Source: Nitrospirota bacterium (GTDB lineage: Bacteria > Nitrospirota > Thermodesulfovibrionia > Thermodesulfovibrionales > JdFR-85). From it: a stretch of 35,413 bases of DNA. Position 1 is the stretch's first letter. Each line of letters begins with the position of its first letter. The notes beneath the pieces were generated by a model. The model was not told the origin of the DNA and ran no database searches. It saw nothing but the letters and a program-made list of their open reading frames with translations. Positions 26,491-35,413 of the stretch are shown here, piece by piece. The position numbers and the translations under genes were made by a program. The stretch covers positions 1 through 35,413 of the forward strand of contig WGEZ01000057.1 in assembly GCA_015492515.1 (NCBI GenBank), written 5' to 3'.

Positions 26491-26542
26491 ACTATTGCAT
26501 CGCCGCTTCGCGGCCTTCACAGAGAGTAGATCCGGGGAGAGA

Positions 26543-27595
26543 ATGAGGCGAGGACCGGGGAAGAGAGCCCTTTCGGTGCTGCTGGTGCTCCTGGTGCTGC
26601 CCCTGATGGGGATGGGACCCGACGTGGCCGAGCGGAAGGAGGAGAGGATCGTATGGCCGCCTCCGCCTTACAAGCCGAGGATAGAGTACGTAAGGTCCAT
26701 CTCCACCCCTGACGACATGGAGATAAAGAAGGGCTTCTTCCGCCGTCTCTGGGAGTTCGTCGCGGGCAGGAGGCTTGAGGGGATCATAAAACCCCTCGGC
26801 GTGTATGCCGACTCGAAGGGGAGGCTCTACGTGACCGATACGGCCGGACAGTCCGTCCACGTCTTCGATCCCGAAGAGGGCCGGTATTTCATGATCGAGG
26901 GCAGCGGGAGGGAGCGCTTCGTCTCTCCCGTGGGTGTGACCGTGGGGGACGGGGAGGAGATATACGTATCCGATTCCGTCCTGCGGAGGGTCTTCGTCTT
27001 CGACAGGGACGGAGGGTACCTGAGGGAGATCGGCGGTGAGGGGCTGCTGAAGCGGCCCACGGGGATCGCCGTCGCCGGGGGGACCCTCTACGTCGTCGAT
27101 ACCCTCGCAGACAGGATCCATCTCTTCGGCACCGACGGCAGGTTCAAGACCTCCATCGGCGGCAGCGGAAGGGGCGACGGAGAGTTCAACAGGCCCACGT
27201 TCATCACCATCGGAGGCGACGGCAGGCTCTACGTCACGGACTCGATGAACGCCAGGGTCCAGATACTGGACAGCTCCGGGAGGTTCATCGCCAAGTTCGG
27301 CAGGAGGGGTGACGGCACCGGTGACCTGGCCAACCCCAGGGGGATTGCCCTCGACAGCGACGGCAACATCTACCTGACGGACACCCTCTTCGAGGCGGTA
27401 CAGATATTCGATCCCACCGGGAGGCTCCTCCTCGTCTTCGGCAGACACGGCTCGGCCCGCGGCGAGTTCGCCGTGCCTGCAGGGATCTCCATAGCGGATG
27501 ATATAATATACATAGCCGATTCCTACAACAGCAGGGTCCAGGTCTTCAGGTATCTGAAGGACGACACGGGCGGAACGAAAGGAGGGTCTCCATGA
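26543..27595 (+). CDS. NHL-repeat propeller protein, exported, 350 aa
   Basis: ATG 26543 follows GGGGAGAG. An earlier in-frame ATG at 26495 lies right at the predicted transcript start and has no ribosome site. The signal peptide is ALSVLLVLLVLPLMGMG, with no lipobox cysteine. The lead-in VWPPPPYKPRIEYV matches the other NHL protein (18460), and about six blades follow (for example NPRGIALDSDGNIYLTDTLF). It overlaps the following cytochrome start by 4 bases (ATGA), so the two are co-translated and probably form one complex with the beta-barrel protein upstream. Confidence 0.9.
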   Translation: MRRGPGKRALSVLLVLLVLPLMGMGPDVAERKEERIVWPPPPYKPRIEYVRSISTPDDMEIKKGFFRRLWEFVAGRRLEGIIKPLGVYADSKGRLYVTDTAGQSVHVFDPEEGRYFMIEGSGRERFVSPVGVTVGDGEEIYVSDSVLRRVFVFDRDGGYLREIGGEGLLKRPTGIAVAGGTLYVVDTLADRIHLFGTDGRFKTSIGGSGRGDGEFNRPTFITIGGDGRLYVTDSMNARVQILDSSGRFIAKFGRRGDGTGDLANPRGIALDSDGNIYLTDTLFEAVQIFDPTGRLLLVFGRHGSARGEFAVPAGISIADDIIYIADSYNSRVQVFRYLKDDTGGTKGGSP

Positions 27596-29676
27596 GGCCT
27601 CTGATCATCTCGATGGTGGTGGCGGCTCTGGTGCCCCTGTTCGCCGCAGCCGCAGGCGCAGGTGTTGTGAACACGGTCCATAACCTCTCCACGACCGGCC
27701 CCGGCGCGATCAAGGCCACGGAAGAGGCGGAGATATGCATATTCTGCCACGTGCCGCACAACGCCAACCCGGCCGTCCCCCTCTGGAACCACGACATGTC
27801 CGGCGCCGCCTACACGATGTATGACAGCGAGTACCTGAAGAGGGCCGGCTATCCCACGCCTTCCGAGCTCGGGGCCGCTCCCGCGGAGCCCGGATTCGTC
27901 TCCAGGCTCTGCCTCAGCTGTCACGACGGCACAGTGGCTGTGGGCGCCCTCTACATTGTGAGGGGGACGATACTCGGTGACAGCATCATAGCGATGACCG
28001 GGGTGGAGCCGACGGGTGAGATGCCCGCCACGGCGGCCGGTTACATAGGCACCGACCTCACGAGGCATCATCCCGTGGGGATCAAGTATGACTCCAGCAT
28101 CGCCGTCACCTTCGGCTCAGCCGGCTCAGGTGTGAACCCCCGACCGATCGAGCTTCACGCCTCACCTGCCGCACCCCTGAAGGTATACGCCTATGCGACG
28201 GGCAACTACGTTGAATGCGCATCCTGCCACGACGCCCACGTGGAGAACGAGAAGTTCCTCAGGGTGACGACGGGGGCGAACCTGGCGGCGAAGATAGACA
28301 CCACCTGCAACTCCTGCCACTCCAAGATCGACTGGAACGGAAGCATCCACAGCACGAGCACGGCATCCTACACGGACAGCAACGTACTGGACACCTTCGG
28401 GACCGGTGCAGTGGCGTCCCTGGCCTGCATGAACTGCCACAGGACCCACAGGGGAGGGGGTGTGCCCTATCTCCTGAGGCAGCCAGAGGAGAACACCTGC
28501 TTTCAGGGTGCGGCCGGCTCGGCAGCCGGAGGGCCCTGCCACGGTACGGGTGCAGCAGGAGGCGGGAAGGATATCGAGACGGTCATAACCAGGACCTATT
28601 CGCATCCCACGACGGGTATCTCCGGCGTCCATACGAACCTCGACGTCCTCTACCCCGAGGGTGGAACACCGCCCGGGAGCAAGGGGCTCGTCTGGGACAC
28701 CTCGAAACACGCAGAGTGCGTGGACTGCCACAACCCCCACAGGGCGGCCCAGGGCACACATGCACCGTCGGGGCAGTGGTATCCCTCACTGCCGGCAGCG
28801 ACGACGAACACCGTGTCGAACGCCCTGAAGGGTGTGACGGGTGTCGAGCCGGAGTGGCCTTCGGCGGGGATCCAGCCGGTGAACTTCACCACCCTGGAGT
28901 CTGCATCGAAGGAGTACCAGATATGCCTGAAGTGCCACTCCTACTATGCCCTCGGGGTCGCATCCGACGGCGTGACATCCTATCCGACCCTCTCCGACCC
29001 GACGATCAACTTCACCGATCAGGCGTGGGAGTTCAACCCGAACAACCTCTCCGTACACCCCGTGGTCGTCACCCTGAACAGCCAGACCGGCTCCTATGCA
29101 CCGCAGGCGCTTACCTCTTCCCAGCTCTCCCCTCCCTGGACCGCCCCGGGCAACCAGACCATGTACTGCTCCGACTGCCACGGTGCAGAGAACGAGACGA
29201 CCCAGGACCCGAAGGGCCCCCACGGCTCCAGTTACGAATTCATGCTGAAGGGTACGGGCAGGTACTGGCCCACAAAGCCCGACGGCTCGCTCTGGCTCCT
29301 GAACACGACGGATGCAAGCGACCCGGACCTCTTCTGCAGGAACTGCCACCCCATATACGACGGCAGCTGGAAGAACAACGTCCACTCCCAGCAGGGAGGG
29401 ATGGGAGGCGGCGGCGGAGGTGGAGGCGGTATGGGGCGACACCGGAACAGGCCCTGTGTGAACTGCCATGTGGCCGTGCCCCACGGCTCCAGGAGGTCGA
29501 GGTTGATCGGTTACGCCTCGGACCCTTCACCTTACAACTACAACGGCAACAGCCTCAAGCCCGTCGGCTTCGCCAAGGCCTCGGGTCCGTTCAACTACGA
29601 CGACAGGAACTGCAGCTTCCCCATGGGGGTCTGCCACGGACCACAGACCCCACCACCGGGAGGCTACGACCCCTGA
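27592..29676 (+). CDS. Large exported multiheme cytochrome, 10 CxxCH plus CX12CH and CX6CH
   Basis: A 694-residue protein with a signal peptide (MRPLIISMVVAALVPLFAAAAGA). Ten CxxCH sites are visible: CIFCH, CLSCH, CASCH, CNSCH, CMNCH, CVDCH, CLKCH, CSDCH, CRNCH and CVNCH. In addition, C-x12-CH (CFQG...GPCH, 28498-28542) and C-x6-CH (CSFPMGVCH, 29611-29637) sit where further heme sites would be expected. The N-terminal 170 residues share the PLWN module with the cytochromes at 23851 and 29851. A run of nine glycines lies just before the last CxxCH. Start ATG 27592 has AAAGGAGGG. Its size and neighbours make it the best candidate for the main cytochrome of an outer-membrane conduit. Confidence 0.93.
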   Translation: MRPLIISMVVAALVPLFAAAAGAGVVNTVHNLSTTGPGAIKATEEAEICIFCHVPHNANPAVPLWNHDMSGAAYTMYDSEYLKRAGYPTPSELGAAPAEPGFVSRLCLSCHDGTVAVGALYIVRGTILGDSIIAMTGVEPTGEMPATAAGYIGTDLTRHHPVGIKYDSSIAVTFGSAGSGVNPRPIELHASPAAPLKVYAYATGNYVECASCHDAHVENEKFLRVTTGANLAAKIDTTCNSCHSKIDWNGSIHSTSTASYTDSNVLDTFGTGAVASLACMNCHRTHRGGGVPYLLRQPEENTCFQGAAGSAAGGPCHGTGAAGGGKDIETVITRTYSHPTTGISGVHTNLDVLYPEGGTPPGSKGLVWDTSKHAECVDCHNPHRAAQGTHAPSGQWYPSLPAATTNTVSNALKGVTGVEPEWPSAGIQPVNFTTLESASKEYQICLKCHSYYALGVASDGVTSYPTLSDPTINFTDQAWEFNPNNLSVHPVVVTLNSQTGSYAPQALTSSQLSPPWTAPGNQTMYCSDCHGAENETTQDPKGPHGSSYEFMLKGTGRYWPTKPDGSLWLLNTTDASDPDLFCRNCHPIYDGSWKNNVHSQQGGMGGGGGGGGGMGRHRNRPCVNCHVAVPHGSRRSRLIGYASDPSPYNYNGNSLKPVGFAKASGPFNYDDRNCSFPMGVCHGPQTPPPGGYDP

Positions 29677-29713
29677 TCCTCCCTGGGTGAGATCACGCAG
29701 AGGGGGGTCTTTT
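29675..29713 (+). terminator. Weak terminator after the large cytochrome
   Basis: GATCCTCC (29675-29682) can pair with GGGGGGTC (29702-29709) through eight pairs, two of them G-U, and four T follow. It overlaps the stop codon. Confidence 0.4.
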
Positions 29714-29793
29714 CACGCATCCCCGGGGTCTCCGTCACGGTCAAGCCCCTTGCAACGCCCCCAATCGAGGCGCCCTGACCCGCAGGTCGGTGC

Positions 29794-29809
29794 TGGCTTG
29801 TTATTTGCA
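29794..29809 (+). promoter_or_regulatory. Sigma-54 promoter (TGGCTTG-N4-TTGCA)
   Basis: TGGCTTG (29794-29800), four bases, TTGCA (29805-29809), with GG and GC exactly 10 bases apart. Only two consensus bases differ from the site at 23755. Transcription should begin near 29820, 31 bases before the pentaheme cytochrome ATG. Confidence 0.82.
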
Positions 29810-29850
29810 TCCCTCCGGGCGAAACCGTTGGGAGGGAGTTGCAAGGGAGG

Positions 29851-30627
29851 ATGGTCTCAGGGAAGCGGTGGCTCTCCATGCTATTTGTCCTCTTCGTGCT
29901 CACGGCAGGAAGGGTGCTCGATCCCTTGACTCCCTCAACGGTTTTCGGCGGCAGCATCGTGGGCTCCAGGCACGACCTCAAGAGCGACTGGGAGAAAGGG
30001 AGCGTTCTCATGAAGGAGAGCCTCAACAACTACGGTGAGGTCTGCGTCTACTGCCATACACCCCACGGCGGGGACGAATCGCTCGGACCGCTCTGGAACA
30101 GGGACTACACACCGGCGTCCTTCAACGTCTACACCAGCCCCACGATGGATACCACCGCGGCCGGCATCCCCGGTGCGGTCTCACTCGCCTGCCTCAGCTG
30201 CCACGACGGGACGATCGCCGTCGATTCCATCATCAATGCACCCGGCTCAGGGCCGAACCTCACCGGACCGTGGTACGGCCAGGGAGCTGCCACCTATCAT
30301 TTCGCGATGAAGGAGGGCGCCAATGCCTGCGGAGAGTGCCACGTGGGGAGCCCGGCTCACGACGCGCGGCACACCTACCTCACCACCGACCTCAGCGACG
30401 ACCACCCCATATCGATGCCCTACCCGAGCCCTTCCGAAGACCCCCAGTTCAACACCCCTCCCGATGCGATGAAGGGCTGGGGCGGTGCCTCTCCCGGAGA
30501 CGTGAAGCTCTACGCGGGGAAGGTGGAGTGCCCGTCGTGCCACAACGTCCATGACCCGGACGTGGTCCCCTTCCTGAGAAAGGCCAACACCGGGAGCGCG
30601 CTCTGCTACACGTGCCATATAAAATGA
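29851..30627 (+). CDS. Exported pentaheme c-type cytochrome
   Basis: Five CxxCH sites: CVYCH, CLSCH, CGECH, CPSCH and CYTCH, the last two residues from the C-terminus. A hydrophobic signal (LSMLFVLFVLTAG) lies near the N-terminus. The start is uncertain: ATG 29851 (258 residues) is preceded by purine-rich sequence with GGAGGG 14 bases away, while TTG 29839 is four codons earlier and very close to the same site. It is a paralog of the tetraheme cytochrome at 23851 with the same PLWN, CLSCHDGT and HPI blocks, plus an inserted fifth heme (CGECH). Both have their own sigma-54 promoter. A receiver-domain gene follows 7 bases after the stop. Confidence 0.9.
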   Translation: MVSGKRWLSMLFVLFVLTAGRVLDPLTPSTVFGGSIVGSRHDLKSDWEKGSVLMKESLNNYGEVCVYCHTPHGGDESLGPLWNRDYTPASFNVYTSPTMDTTAAGIPGAVSLACLSCHDGTIAVDSIINAPGSGPNLTGPWYGQGAATYHFAMKEGANACGECHVGSPAHDARHTYLTTDLSDDHPISMPYPSPSEDPQFNTPPDAMKGWGGASPGDVKLYAGKVECPSCHNVHDPDVVPFLRKANTGSALCYTCHIK

Positions 30628-31168: not shown

Positions 31169-33334
31169 TTACTTCCTGATCACGATCTCCACTTCGCCCT
31201 CCTTCCTCACCACGTTGATCCCCACGTCCTGCTCATGGCGCGTGAAGACCAGATCGAGTGCGGCCTTCCCGACCCTGAGGTTCTTGATCGTGACCCTCTG
31301 GAGGAAGGGCGGCAGGACGGGGCTGTTGAAGTAGATCCTCTTGTCAGGGGCCTGGATGGAGAGGCCCAGGCATGCCTGAATGAGGAGGAAGGCCGTGCCG
31401 GAGGCCCAGCTCTGCGGATCGCAGGCAACCGGGTAGAGCGTGGGACCCTCGCCACGCCGTCTCTTGAACCCGCAGAACAGCTCCGGCAGCCTGTGGAGGT
31501 CCAGAAAGAGGCTTGCATCGAAGAGGCCCGCGAGGACCCTCATCGCCTCCTCCTTGAACCCGTAGCGGGCCATGCCCGAGGCGATCAGGGCGTTGTCGTG
31601 GGGCCAGACAGAGCCGTTGTGATAGGACATGGGGTTGTAGCGGGCCTGTCCGGAGGCTATCGTCCTTATCCCCCATCCGGTGAAGAAGTCCTCATCCATC
31701 AGGCCCTCCACTATGGAACGGGCATGCCCCTCTGAGGCGATCCCCGAGAAGAGGCAGTGCCCTGTATTAGAGCTCCTCACCCGGCAGGGGCGTTTATCCG
31801 CATCGAGGGCGAGGGCGTAGACCCCCTCCTCCTCGCACCAGAAGGACCTCAGGAACGCCTCACGGAGTGCACCGGCCTCCCTCCGGAGCCTCTCGGCCTC
31901 CCGGTCCCTGCCGAGTGCGAGGGCTATCCTCGCCGCCTTCTCTTTTGCCTCGTAGACATACCCCTGGACCTCACAGAGCGCGATGGGAGGGCTGGCGAGG
32001 GTTCCGTCCTCGTGGAAGATCGAGTCCTCGGAGTCCTTCCAGCCCTGGTTGCCGAGTCCCGTGCCTGACCGCCTGACATACTCCACGAAGCCGTCGCCGT
32101 CGAGGTCGCCGTAGCTGTCGATCCACTCGATGGCGCGTTCGATGCCTGGCCAGAGCCGCTCCATGAAGCCTCTCTCCCCCGTCCGCTCGTAGTAGTAACC
32201 CGCCAGCACCACGAAGAGGGGGGTTGCGTCTACGGTGCCGTAGTAACGGCCGAAGGGGATCTCGCCCAGGGCGGCCATCTCGCCCCTTCTCAGCTCGTGG
32301 AGGATCTTCCCCGGCTCGGCGTCCTGTTCGGGGATGACCGCATCCGCCTGGTTGGAGGCGAGGAACCCCAGGACACCGCGGGCGATCTCGGGGCAGAGCC
32401 AGAGGGTCTCCAGGGCCGTGATTATCCCGTCCCGTCCGAAGACGGTGTTGTACCAGGGGATCCCGGCATAGGGGTAAGGCCCGAAGGGGGTATCGGTGAG
32501 CATCATGAAGACGTCGGCCCTCGAGCGGTTGAGCCAGTCGTTGAACTGTTCATTCGACGTCTCGACGATGCAGGCGGACTCGTGATGCCGCCTGTACGTT
32601 TCCTTCACCTCCCGGAAGGCCTGCTCGAAGGGGACGGAGGGCGACGGCAGCCCCTCGATCTCGGCGGAGGTCACGATCCGGTATTCAGCCTCCTCGTGGG
32701 GTGCGAGCCTCAACCTGAAGACGGCACGGCCCATGCCGAGCCGATCCGGCGGGGGTGAGAACCCGATCCGAGTCCTCCGCACCACACCGTCGAGACCGCT
32801 GTAGCCGAGGACCACCTCTCCGTCCTTCAGCACGGGCTCGAGCATGCTTCCCCTCCTCAGCCTCTTCACCCCCCGCACCTCGAAGATGTCCACGAAATCG
32901 GCGTCGAACTCGACGGAGAAGGAGAACTCGACGGGATGGAGCGCGAAGTTCGTGATCTTGATCCCCTCGTAGCAGCGGCCCTCCCAGAGGAAGACGGTCC
33001 GGTGCAGGTGGATGCTCCCCTTCCGTACCAGGGTGCCACCTTCGGAGTCGAAGTCCGGGTTGGTGAGGTCCGCCATCAGGAAGTCGTTGTCCTCGGTGAT
33101 GGTGGAGCTCAACAGCAGGGGGCTCCTCTCCTGCATCCTGAGGACGAGGCGGGAGAGGAACCGCGTGCCCTCATGGAAGAGCCCGTGGTCCTCGAAGCCG
33201 AGGGGTCTGATGTCGCCGTGGCGGTCGGTTATGAGGAAGGTCTCGGCGTGCTTGAGGACACGCGTCGTCTCCTCGGCGATGGAGGAGGCTGCCAGGATGT
33301 AGAACCGGTCTTCGATACGGATGACCTCTTCCAC
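31169..33334 (-). CDS. Amylo-alpha-1,6-glucosidase-type (glycogen debranching) enzyme, 721 aa
   Basis: Likely cleaves alpha-1,6 branch points of glycogen-like glucans in the cytoplasm. The N-terminal part (about 1-240) matches the bis-type GDE N-terminal beta-domain (FLITDRHGDIRPLG...GLFHEGTRFLSRL). The C-terminal (alpha/alpha)6 barrel carries YNTVFGRDGIITALE, GLGNQGWKDSEDSI and MSYHNGSVWPHDNALIASG, the conserved active-site region of the GH133-like family. The start GTG 33334 lies 6 bases after the glycosyltransferase stop, with a weak ribosome site, so translation is probably coupled. It is the third gene of a diadenylate cyclase > GT4 > debranching run. Confidence 0.9.
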   Translation of the reverse strand: MEEVIRIEDRFYILAASSIAEETTRVLKHAETFLITDRHGDIRPLGFEDHGLFHEGTRFLSRLVLRMQERSPLLLSSTITEDNDFLMADLTNPDFDSEGGTLVRKGSIHLHRTVFLWEGRCYEGIKITNFALHPVEFSFSVEFDADFVDIFEVRGVKRLRRGSMLEPVLKDGEVVLGYSGLDGVVRRTRIGFSPPPDRLGMGRAVFRLRLAPHEEAEYRIVTSAEIEGLPSPSVPFEQAFREVKETYRRHHESACIVETSNEQFNDWLNRSRADVFMMLTDTPFGPYPYAGIPWYNTVFGRDGIITALETLWLCPEIARGVLGFLASNQADAVIPEQDAEPGKILHELRRGEMAALGEIPFGRYYGTVDATPLFVVLAGYYYERTGERGFMERLWPGIERAIEWIDSYGDLDGDGFVEYVRRSGTGLGNQGWKDSEDSIFHEDGTLASPPIALCEVQGYVYEAKEKAARIALALGRDREAERLRREAGALREAFLRSFWCEEEGVYALALDADKRPCRVRSSNTGHCLFSGIASEGHARSIVEGLMDEDFFTGWGIRTIASGQARYNPMSYHNGSVWPHDNALIASGMARYGFKEEAMRVLAGLFDASLFLDLHRLPELFCGFKRRRGEGPTLYPVACDPQSWASGTAFLLIQACLGLSIQAPDKRIYFNSPVLPPFLQRVTIKNLRVGKAALDLVFTRHEQDVGINVVRKEGEVEIVIRK

Positions 33335-33340
33335 CGCCTA

Positions 33341-34393
33341 TCAGGCAACCTTCCTCTCGAGGGCCTCCTGCTGCAGGATGAGCCGACGATACACCTCGAG
33401 GTAGTCCCTGGCCATCCTGACAGAGGTGAACCGTTCCTCGAAGACCCTCCGGCATCGCCTCCTGTCGAGTGAAGAGACCCTCTTCACGGCCCTCACCGCC
33501 TCGTCCAGGTCGTTCACGATGAAGCCCGTCACGCCGTGCTCCATCACCTCCGGCACCGAGCCGCACCGGTAGGCTATCACGGGTGTGCCGCAGGCCATGG
33601 CCTCTATCATCACCAGCCCGAAGGGTTCGGGCCAGTCGATGGGGAAGAGGAGGGCATAGGCGCCGCCCAGGAAGTCGTCCTTCTCCGCCTGACCGATCTC
33701 GCCGATGAACTCCACAAGCGGGTGGTTCAGGAGGGGCTTCACCACCGTCTCGAAGTACTCCCTGTCAGCCCTGTCCACCTTTGCGGCGATCTTCAGCTCC
33801 ATACCGGCCCGCTTCGCGATCTCCACCGCCCTGTCCACCCTCTTCTCAGGGCTTATCCGGCCGAGGAAGGCGAGATAACCGCCGTGGGCCTCCCTGAAGG
33901 TGAAGAGGTTCTCCGGGATGCCGTGATAGACCGTGCCCTGCCAGTTGATCCAGGGGAGGGGCTCCCTCTGGGCGTTGGATATGGAGACGACGGGTATCTC
34001 GGAGAACTCCATGAACAGCGGCACCAGGTCGGGTATGTCGAGCCTTCCGTGAAGGGTGTTCACCGAGGGCGTCCTGATCAGACGCATCACGGTGAAGGGG
34101 AAATAATCGATGTGGGAATGGATTACGTCGAACTCACCGGCCTTCTGAAAGACCTTCTCCACCATCAGGACGTGGTGGACTATCTGGTCGATGCACCCCC
34201 TGTCCAGCCTCAGGGAGCTGCGGCACATGGGTTCGAGCCGTGCACTGGTGACGGAGTCACCGCTTGCAAAGAGGGTCACATCGTGGCCCATCCGGACCAG
34301 CTCTTCCGTAAGGTATGAAACGATCCGCTCCGTCCCTCCGTAGTACCTTGGAGGGACGCTCTCGTAAAGCGGTGCAACCTGGGCGATCTTCAT
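33341..34393 (-). CDS. GT4-family glycosyltransferase, 350 aa
   Basis: A GT-B fold retaining glycosyltransferase. Visible features: N-terminal IAQVAPLYESVPPRYYGGTERIVSYLTEEL, GRISPEKRVDRAVEIAKRAG at the start of the donor domain, and EPFGLVMIEAMACGTPVIAYRCGSVPEVM with the E-x7-E motif that binds the nucleotide sugar. I chose ATG 34393 because AAGGAGGG precedes it; a start at 34477 would overlap the cyclase gene and add 28 unlikely residues. No signal peptide. Next to a debranching enzyme it may build or modify a storage glucan or a compatible-solute glycoside. The exact product cannot be told from sequence. Confidence 0.88.
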   Translation of the reverse strand: MKIAQVAPLYESVPPRYYGGTERIVSYLTEELVRMGHDVTLFASGDSVTSARLEPMCRSSLRLDRGCIDQIVHHVLMVEKVFQKAGEFDVIHSHIDYFPFTVMRLIRTPSVNTLHGRLDIPDLVPLFMEFSEIPVVSISNAQREPLPWINWQGTVYHGIPENLFTFREAHGGYLAFLGRISPEKRVDRAVEIAKRAGMELKIAAKVDRADREYFETVVKPLLNHPLVEFIGEIGQAEKDDFLGGAYALLFPIDWPEPFGLVMIEAMACGTPVIAYRCGSVPEVMEHGVTGFIVNDLDEAVRAVKRVSSLDRRRCRRVFEERFTSVRMARDYLEVYRRLILQQEALERKVA

Positions 34394-34473: not shown

Positions 34474-35055
34474 TCATTCCTTCTCACTGACCACCGCCAG
34501 CTCGTCTCCGGTCTCCGTCGAATAGGGGCCTTTGAGATGGAGACTGAACCTCTGCAGCAGCCACACCTCGGGCAGTATCTCGGCTATAATCCTGCCCTTC
34601 TCAAAGACCCGCACCACCGAGCTCTCCGATACAACGATGGCGATCGCCTTGGTCTTGCTCGTGATGGACGCGGCAGCCACGTGGCGGCTCCCCAGACCGA
34701 GTGGAAGCTCGATCCCCTCAGATGAAGCGTTTATGTACCTGCAGGCCGAGAGGAAGACCCCGTCCTCGGAGATGATGAAGGCCCCGTCAAGCTGGGCCAG
34801 CTCCTTCACCGTTTCCCGGAGGCCCGCGTTCTCTATCCGTCTCTCCTCAACGGGATGGTGCCACAGGGGATCGAGGATGAGGGGACGTGAATTCTTGAGC
34901 ACATTCTCCGAGTCGGCGAAGACGAAGAAGGTCCCCACCTTCCGGCCCTCCCTGCCCTCCCTGGCGATCTCGATGGCAAGGACGAGGACCTTCTCCAGGG
35001 TGACGGGATCCACACCCCTCTTCTCGGTGCATATCCCTTTCAGTACGTCTATCAC
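34474..35055 (-). CDS. Diadenylate cyclase (DAC/DisA_N-domain protein), 193 aa
   Basis: Probably makes cyclic di-AMP from two ATP. The two hallmark motifs of the DAC fold are present: DGA at 90-92 (QLDGAFIISEDG) and GSRHVAA at 122-128, the counterpart of GTRHRAA in DisA/CdaA. These are followed by ITSKTKAIAIVVSESSVVRVFEKG. The third motif position is V rather than R (RHV), which also occurs in stand-alone, archaeal-like DAC proteins, so activity is likely but not certain. There are no membrane helices and no DNA-binding domain, so it is a soluble cyclase. The start is GTG 35055 with GAGG 10 bases upstream. A sigma-70 promoter with a CIRCE operator lies 79 bases upstream, and no other gene lies between. 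Confidence 0.87.
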   Translation of the reverse strand: MIDVLKGICTEKRGVDPVTLEKVLVLAIEIAREGREGRKVGTFFVFADSENVLKNSRPLILDPLWHHPVEERRIENAGLRETVKELAQLDGAFIISEDGVFLSACRYINASSEGIELPLGLGSRHVAAASITSKTKAIAIVVSESSVVRVFEKGRIIAEILPEVWLLQRFSLHLKGPYSTETGDELAVVSEKE

Positions 35056-35133
35056 TTCAGTTTGACCTCGAACGGAGCCACCGCTGCCGCGACGATGATC
35101 CGACGGAAGATGACCCCTCTCCGGACAGGCTTG

Positions 35134-35160
35134 TTAGCACTCTCAAGGAAGGAGTGCTAA
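35134..35160 (-). promoter_or_regulatory. CIRCE operator (HrcA binding site)
   Basis: TTAGCACTC (35134-35142), nine bases, GAGTGCTAA (35152-35160): a perfect match to the CIRCE inverted repeat bound by the heat-shock repressor HrcA. It begins 4 bases downstream of the -10 of the minus-strand promoter at 35165-35194, the usual place for repression at the transcript start. The only gene downstream on that strand is the diadenylate cyclase gene. No groES, groEL, dnaK or grpE gene is present in the window. Confidence 0.93.
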
Positions 35161-35164
35161 TTCT

Positions 35165-35194
35165 TATTTAGCACACAACGGGGGCGGCTGTCAA
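35165..35194 (-). promoter_or_regulatory. Sigma-70 promoter of the diadenylate cyclase operon
   Basis: On the minus strand TTGACA (35189-35194), an 18-base spacer and TAAATA (35165-35170). The -35 is perfect and the -10 is weak. A third CIRCE-like half-site, TTAGCACAC (35168-35176), overlaps the -10. Confidence 0.65.
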
Positions 35195-35208
35195 GGGTGG
35201 TCCTTGCC

Positions 35209-35413
35209 TCAGATGGCCTCTTTCCCGCGCTCGCCCGTCCTGATCCGCACCACGTCCTGGAGGCTGTAGACGAAGATCTTTCCGTCGCCGATCTCCCCTG
35301 TCCTCGCCGACTCCTGTATGGTGTTAAGTATCTCGTCGAGCTTGTCGTCAGGCACGGCCACCTCGATCTTCACCTTCGGGAGGAACCTCACCTCGTACTT
35401 GGCCCCCCTGTAG
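35209..35413 (-). CDS. PII nitrogen-regulatory protein, C-terminal part (5' end off window)
   Basis: The frame is open to the right edge and reads YRGAKYEVRFLPKVKIEVAV at the visible start, which is the T-loop of a PII (GlnB/GlnK) protein, including the tyrosine that is uridylylated in relatives. RTGEIGDGKIFV, the signature of the nucleotide-binding site, and VVRIRTGERGKEAI at the C-terminus follow. An internal GTG at 35391 is not the start. PII proteins sense ATP/ADP and 2-oxoglutarate and control nitrogen and carbon metabolism. Whether it is GlnB or GlnK, and whether amtB is upstream, cannot be seen here. It is read toward the cyclase gene on the same strand, with the CIRCE promoter between them. 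Confidence 0.93.
   Translation of the reverse strand, partial: YRGAKYEVRFLPKVKIEVAVPDDKLDEILNTIQESARTGEIGDGKIFVYSLQDVVRIRTGERGKEAI

Follow-up and report, generated by a model that had tools for sequence, protein, structure and literature searches.

The window, by which we mean the whole 35,413-nucleotide stretch of Nitrospirota DNA analysed here, carries near one end a compact group of minus-strand features (Table 1). Read in that direction, the end of the PII gene glnB is followed by TTGACA, 17 bp, the hexamer CTAAAT, a CIRCE element (the operator of the repressor HrcA), 78 bp, and then genes for a short diadenylate cyclase (DAC), a glycosyltransferase (GT) and, after a further 6 bp, a debranching-type enzyme (GDE). 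The downstream glycosyltransferase and debranching enzyme of the original prediction are thus both present, collinear behind DAC, and the three genes look like a single operon. The start of GT is most likely the Met codon given in Table 1, because relatives begin there; for GDE, the GDE_N_bis score is 208 bits against a Pfam cut-off of 22.1. The glnB stop lies near 35207-35209, 48 bp before the CIRCE, and the gene reads in the same direction as DAC; we treat it simply as a neighbour of DAC-GT-GDE. Elsewhere in the window, at 26495-30627, genes for an NHL beta-propeller protein and multihaem cytochromes with paired CXXCH motifs have the appearance of an extracellular electron transfer cluster.

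Table 1. Features of the DAC-GT-GDE locus, in window coordinates.
Feature	Position	Strand	Basis and details
GDE, debranching-type: GDE_N_bis plus six-hairpin glycosidase domain	31169..33334	-	Pfam GDE_N_bis, E 1.5e-61
GT, family 4 type glycosyltransferase (start most likely)	33341..34393	-	Pfam Glycos_transf_1, E 5e-23; open frame from 34477
DAC, short soluble DacZ-like diadenylate cyclase	34474..35055	-	193 aa, GTG start; Pfam PF02457, 68 bits, E 7e-19
CIRCE (HrcA operator)	35134..35160		0 mismatches; perfect 9-N9-9 inverted repeat, TTAGCACTC-N9-GAGTGCTAA
-10 CTAAAT, weak, directly upstream of CIRCE	35166..35171	-	Sequence; hrcA promoter has TTAAAT at the equivalent place
-35 hexamer TTGACA, presumed promoter	35189..35194	-	Sequence; perfect; TTGACAGCCG also in hrcA promoter
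glnB (PII), 3' part	35207..35413	-	tblastn 100%; full gene on contig C148

The perfect CIRCE that had been claimed to precede the DAC-domain gene was recovered exactly. It is the sole match in the window at up to three mismatches, where shuffled sequences lead to an expectation of 0.01; across the whole genome every CIRCE match is perfect, and a reversed control pattern gave no match. Chance origin of the element is excluded. The contig ends 253 bp away from the site, and its terminal part (35105-35413, the end of contig C57) coincides, but for a few base differences, with one end of contig C148; the differences are probably strain variation within the metagenome. The CIRCE and its near flanks are repeated on C148 with such differences, below a whole glnB, and we rejected this copy as a fourth genomic site, treating it as an overlapping variant of the same locus. 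An assembly artefact was likewise rejected as the origin of the CIRCE-DAC linkage, since operator and gene lie 78 bp apart on one contig and so were not brought together by an assembly join. The sigma-70 promoter proposed ahead of the operator fared less clearly: its -35 hexamer is perfect, and the layout TTGACAGCCG-N17-(C/T)TAAAT-CIRCE is common to the DAC locus and to the genome's own hrcA (TTAAAT at hrcA), but the -10 is weak, and TTGACA-N17-CTAAAT was not listed by a consensus promoter scan because its -10 is poor.

HrcA represses its targets until misfolded proteins occupy GroEL, whereupon repression is relieved. The presence of hrcA in this genome had been set as a check on the prediction, and the gene is there, intact (HrcA match 200 bits) and preceded by its own CIRCE. 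Apart from the DAC locus, only two CIRCE loci were found in the genome, one before hrcA, which dnaK follows, and one at groES-groEL. The original prediction had limited established CIRCE/HrcA control to groE and dnaK operons; both are represented here, but the limit is too narrow for this order, in which extra CIRCEs precede Hsp20 clusters in genomes G053, G056, G028, G037 (twice) and G032 (loci L240, L246, L251, L254, L255 and L276), and precede htpG, identified by eye from sequence, in G028, G074, G082, G067 and G043 (loci L249, L258, L265, L272 and L273). In this Nitrospirota order the heat-shock response may be governed mainly by HrcA. In the delta-proteobacteria, reported HrcA targets comprise groESL, hrcA-dnaK and rpoH (Geobacter sulfurreducens; PMC545781). 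A perfect CIRCE also stands before a gene for a PsiE-like (phosphate-starvation-inducible E) membrane protein in G038 (L268:1028-1054; G038:C3:205627), which may be another unexpected HrcA target.

What is conserved in relatives is a CIRCE followed by GT and GDE, with no DAC between: this arrangement was found in five other genomes of the same family, in one genome of another family and in one gammaproteobacterium. Within the family, the third CIRCE directly before GT-GDE is perfect in G001 and G008, and carries one mismatch in G002 and G012 and two in G009; in G031, from another family, a perfect CIRCE lies ~60 bp before GT-GDE. The gammaproteobacterium, an Ectothiorhodospiraceae MAG (G439), has a one-mismatch CIRCE ~115 bp before GT-GDE, and CIRCEs also before hrcA, groESL and clpB (ClpB identified by eye from sequence), that before the clpB-like gene being perfect (L261:1729-1755). 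Physical linkage to chaperone genes takes further forms, including the orders CIRCE-groES-groEL-GT-GDE (G023) and GT-GDE-dnaK (G403). Plasmids of Pelagibacterium, Neorhizobium and Rhizobium (L310, L311 and L312) carry islands of groES-groEL-GT-GDE-Hsp20-Hsp20. In each of the three, groES is preceded by a site that resembles CIRCE at 2-3 mismatches, and two also encode a Do/DegQ protease; on a Mesorhizobium plasmid a Do protease adjoins GT-GDE. Such heat-shock neighbours were absent from the other sampled annotated plasmids. Of the 33 genomes of the class in which GT occurs, 23 had no CIRCE or chaperone neighbour among those sought. In a maximum-likelihood tree of GT, some forks of which are weakly supported, the CIRCE- or chaperone-linked members fall on several separate branches, which suggests repeated coupling rather than one inheritance. 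By this comparison of gene neighbourhoods, the association of GT-GDE with heat-shock genes is recurrent, not universal. One further site, in Thermodesulfovibrio sp. (L137:4952-4978), is a perfect palindrome just before GT, TCAGCGCTC-N9-GAGCGCTGA, resembling a compensated CIRCE variant with 4 mismatches to CIRCE; by our estimate, ~2-3 such matches would occur by chance in the scanned sequence, and as a result its standing as a diverged operator, as against a chance match, is unproven.

The genome has two DAC genes, one of CdaA type on contig C129 and the short DAC of the window, whose domain identity is settled by Pfam. Its class is less typical. The NCBIfam model for DacZ scores it best, at 128.7 bits over model positions 122-269 of 270 only; the full-length DacZ score (>430) was not reached, and the 193 aa protein is devoid of the N-terminal PK_C-like domain. 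Scores against the other classes were well below their cut-offs, at 26.6 bits (cut-off 188.8) for CdaA, 20.8 (201) for DisA, with no HhH match in Pfam, and 21.3 (225) for CdaS, and no strongly hydrophobic 19-residue window was detected in a check for transmembrane segments. A search of the PDB with the DAC sequence alone returned no match; a profile search recovered CdaA and DisA, with alignments that begin at the DGA motif. Among 231 genomes of the class the sole orthologue is in G302, a member of another family, which encodes a 70% identical protein with the same C-terminal tail at the end of the cluster Hsp20-Hsp20-Hsp20-GT-GDE-HtrA-DAC. No CIRCE at up to 4 mismatches occurs within an 18-kb stretch around that cluster. 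A CIRCE before DAC is accordingly known from one genome only, and the proposed check for CIRCE before orthologous DAC genes yielded one negative case, G302. The 43-53% identical DACs of relatives were rejected as orthologues, those inspected being two-domain proteins of ~300 aa, none beside GT-GDE or CIRCE.

These observations bear on whether the cyclase itself belongs to the regulated unit. The functional HrcA target could be GT-GDE alone, with DAC a passenger inserted between the CIRCE promoter and GT and devoid of any role in heat stress, as the usual CIRCE-GT-GDE form without DAC and the single case of a CIRCE preceding DAC would suggest. We consider this unlikely, however, given that the sole orthologue, in a different family, also keeps company with GT-GDE, in a cluster that includes Hsp20 and HtrA genes, has a different gene order and carries a GT that branches elsewhere in the tree. 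That both known genomes with the short DAC place it with GT-GDE, despite these differences, favours a real functional link, on a base of two genomes. The claim of CIRCE control over DAC therefore survives in part: a CIRCE does stand before DAC-GT-GDE, but it is not aimed at DAC in particular, as relatives have CIRCE-GT-GDE without the cyclase. Emphasis should shift to the conserved GT-GDE unit as an accessory heat-shock operon, putatively HrcA-controlled, to which a short DacZ-like DAC appears to have been added.

A second alternative concerns the activity of the cyclase. In the alignment, DAC retains the DGA motif and reads RHV in place of RHR, and replacement of RHR by AAA in Mycobacterium tuberculosis DacA abolishes both ATP binding and activity (PMC3328451); together with the missing N-terminal domain, this could indicate a dead or degenerate enzyme which, if it acts at all, does so as a binding protein. 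Such a loss of function is improbable in our assessment, as DGA and the first two residues of RHR are intact, the last residue of that motif varies among DacZ-like relatives (M, L, Y, R), an archaeal protein annotated as DacZ has H there, and a triple-alanine mutant tells little about a single position. Finally, although a terminator scan listed the palindrome as terminator-like on the plus strand, an intrinsic terminator or chance repeat with no operator function is very improbable and was rejected, as no plus-strand gene terminates there, only 4 of the 11 stem pairs are G-C, the CIRCE match is exact, and the box recurs ahead of hrcA and groESL in this genome and ahead of GT-GDE in relatives.

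Taken together, we judge it likely that DAC-GT-GDE is an HrcA-repressed, heat-inducible accessory heat-shock operon; HrcA binding, heat induction and c-di-AMP synthesis at this locus are inferred, the repression step from the established biology of HrcA. Under this proposal, misfolded proteins would occupy GroEL, leading HrcA to lose activity and leave CIRCE, and the release of HrcA would allow transcription of DAC-GT-GDE together with groESL and hrcA-dnaK. DAC could then supplement the basal c-di-AMP supplied by CdaA with a stress-induced pool. GT and GDE might assemble or cut back a glucan-like polymer or a glycoside that supports cells during heat stress. The nucleotide might act on GT-GDE, or on separate targets, for example in potassium or osmolyte balance. 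A more specific proposal, which we advance tentatively and hold to be rather doubtful, is that c-di-AMP serves this lineage as a second messenger of heat shock: HrcA would directly gate a dedicated short DAC, and the product of that enzyme would control the co-transcribed GT-GDE. If so, protein misfolding would be converted into a nucleotide signal directed at a carbohydrate reserve or protectant.

The open-licence literature held no paper joining CIRCE with a DAC or with a GDE or debranching enzyme, none combining HrcA, CIRCE and glycogen debranching, nothing relevant on debranching enzymes within heat-shock gene clusters and no description of c-di-AMP synthesis under heat-shock control; the CIRCE element and c-di-AMP co-occurred only in a paper treating them separately. 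Background in favour of the proposal comes from Lactococcus lactis, in which gdpP mutations that raise c-di-AMP have been associated with an ability to grow at high temperature, according to work cited in PMC4585701, and from the cyanobacterial control of glycogen branching described below. Should the operon prove to be as proposed, a second messenger and carbohydrate enzymes would join the HrcA regulon, which is commonly regarded as a narrow switch for chaperones, and a path would lead from protein misfolding to c-di-AMP. DAC aside, the uncharacterised GT-GDE pair is repeatedly wired to CIRCE, groESL, Hsp20 and HtrA across Nitrospirota and Proteobacteria, a pattern that points to a branch of the heat-shock response, based on sugar polymers, that has been overlooked.

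Several known systems offer partial parallels. The locus shares with the HrcA/CIRCE regulon (groESL, hrcA-grpE-dnaKJ) the operator sequence, its place just downstream of a presumed promoter and an hrcA gene with its own CIRCE, but the presumed targets here are one diadenylate cyclase gene and a pair of genes for carbohydrate enzymes instead of a chaperone operon. The cyclase resembles the DacZ class, as represented by DacZ of Haloferax volcanii (PMC6741144), in that the DacZ model scores best and DGA is kept; it differs in being bacterial, in reading RHV rather than RHR, in the absence of the N-terminal PK_C-like domain and in a C-terminal tail common only to the G302 orthologue. In cyanobacteria, c-di-AMP controls glycogen synthesis and branching via SbtB and GlgB (PMC10117731), and there a PII-like protein connects the nucleotide with an enzyme that modifies glucan; HrcA plays no part in that system, whereas in the window the link consists of gene order only and the upstream PII gene is an ordinary glnB. 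The rhizobial plasmid islands and the G302 cluster resemble the locus in having the GT-GDE pair, there set among heat-shock genes. The plasmid islands have no DAC, unlike the window, and in contrast to both arrangements the chaperones of this genome lie elsewhere, while the CIRCE stands directly before DAC-GT-GDE.
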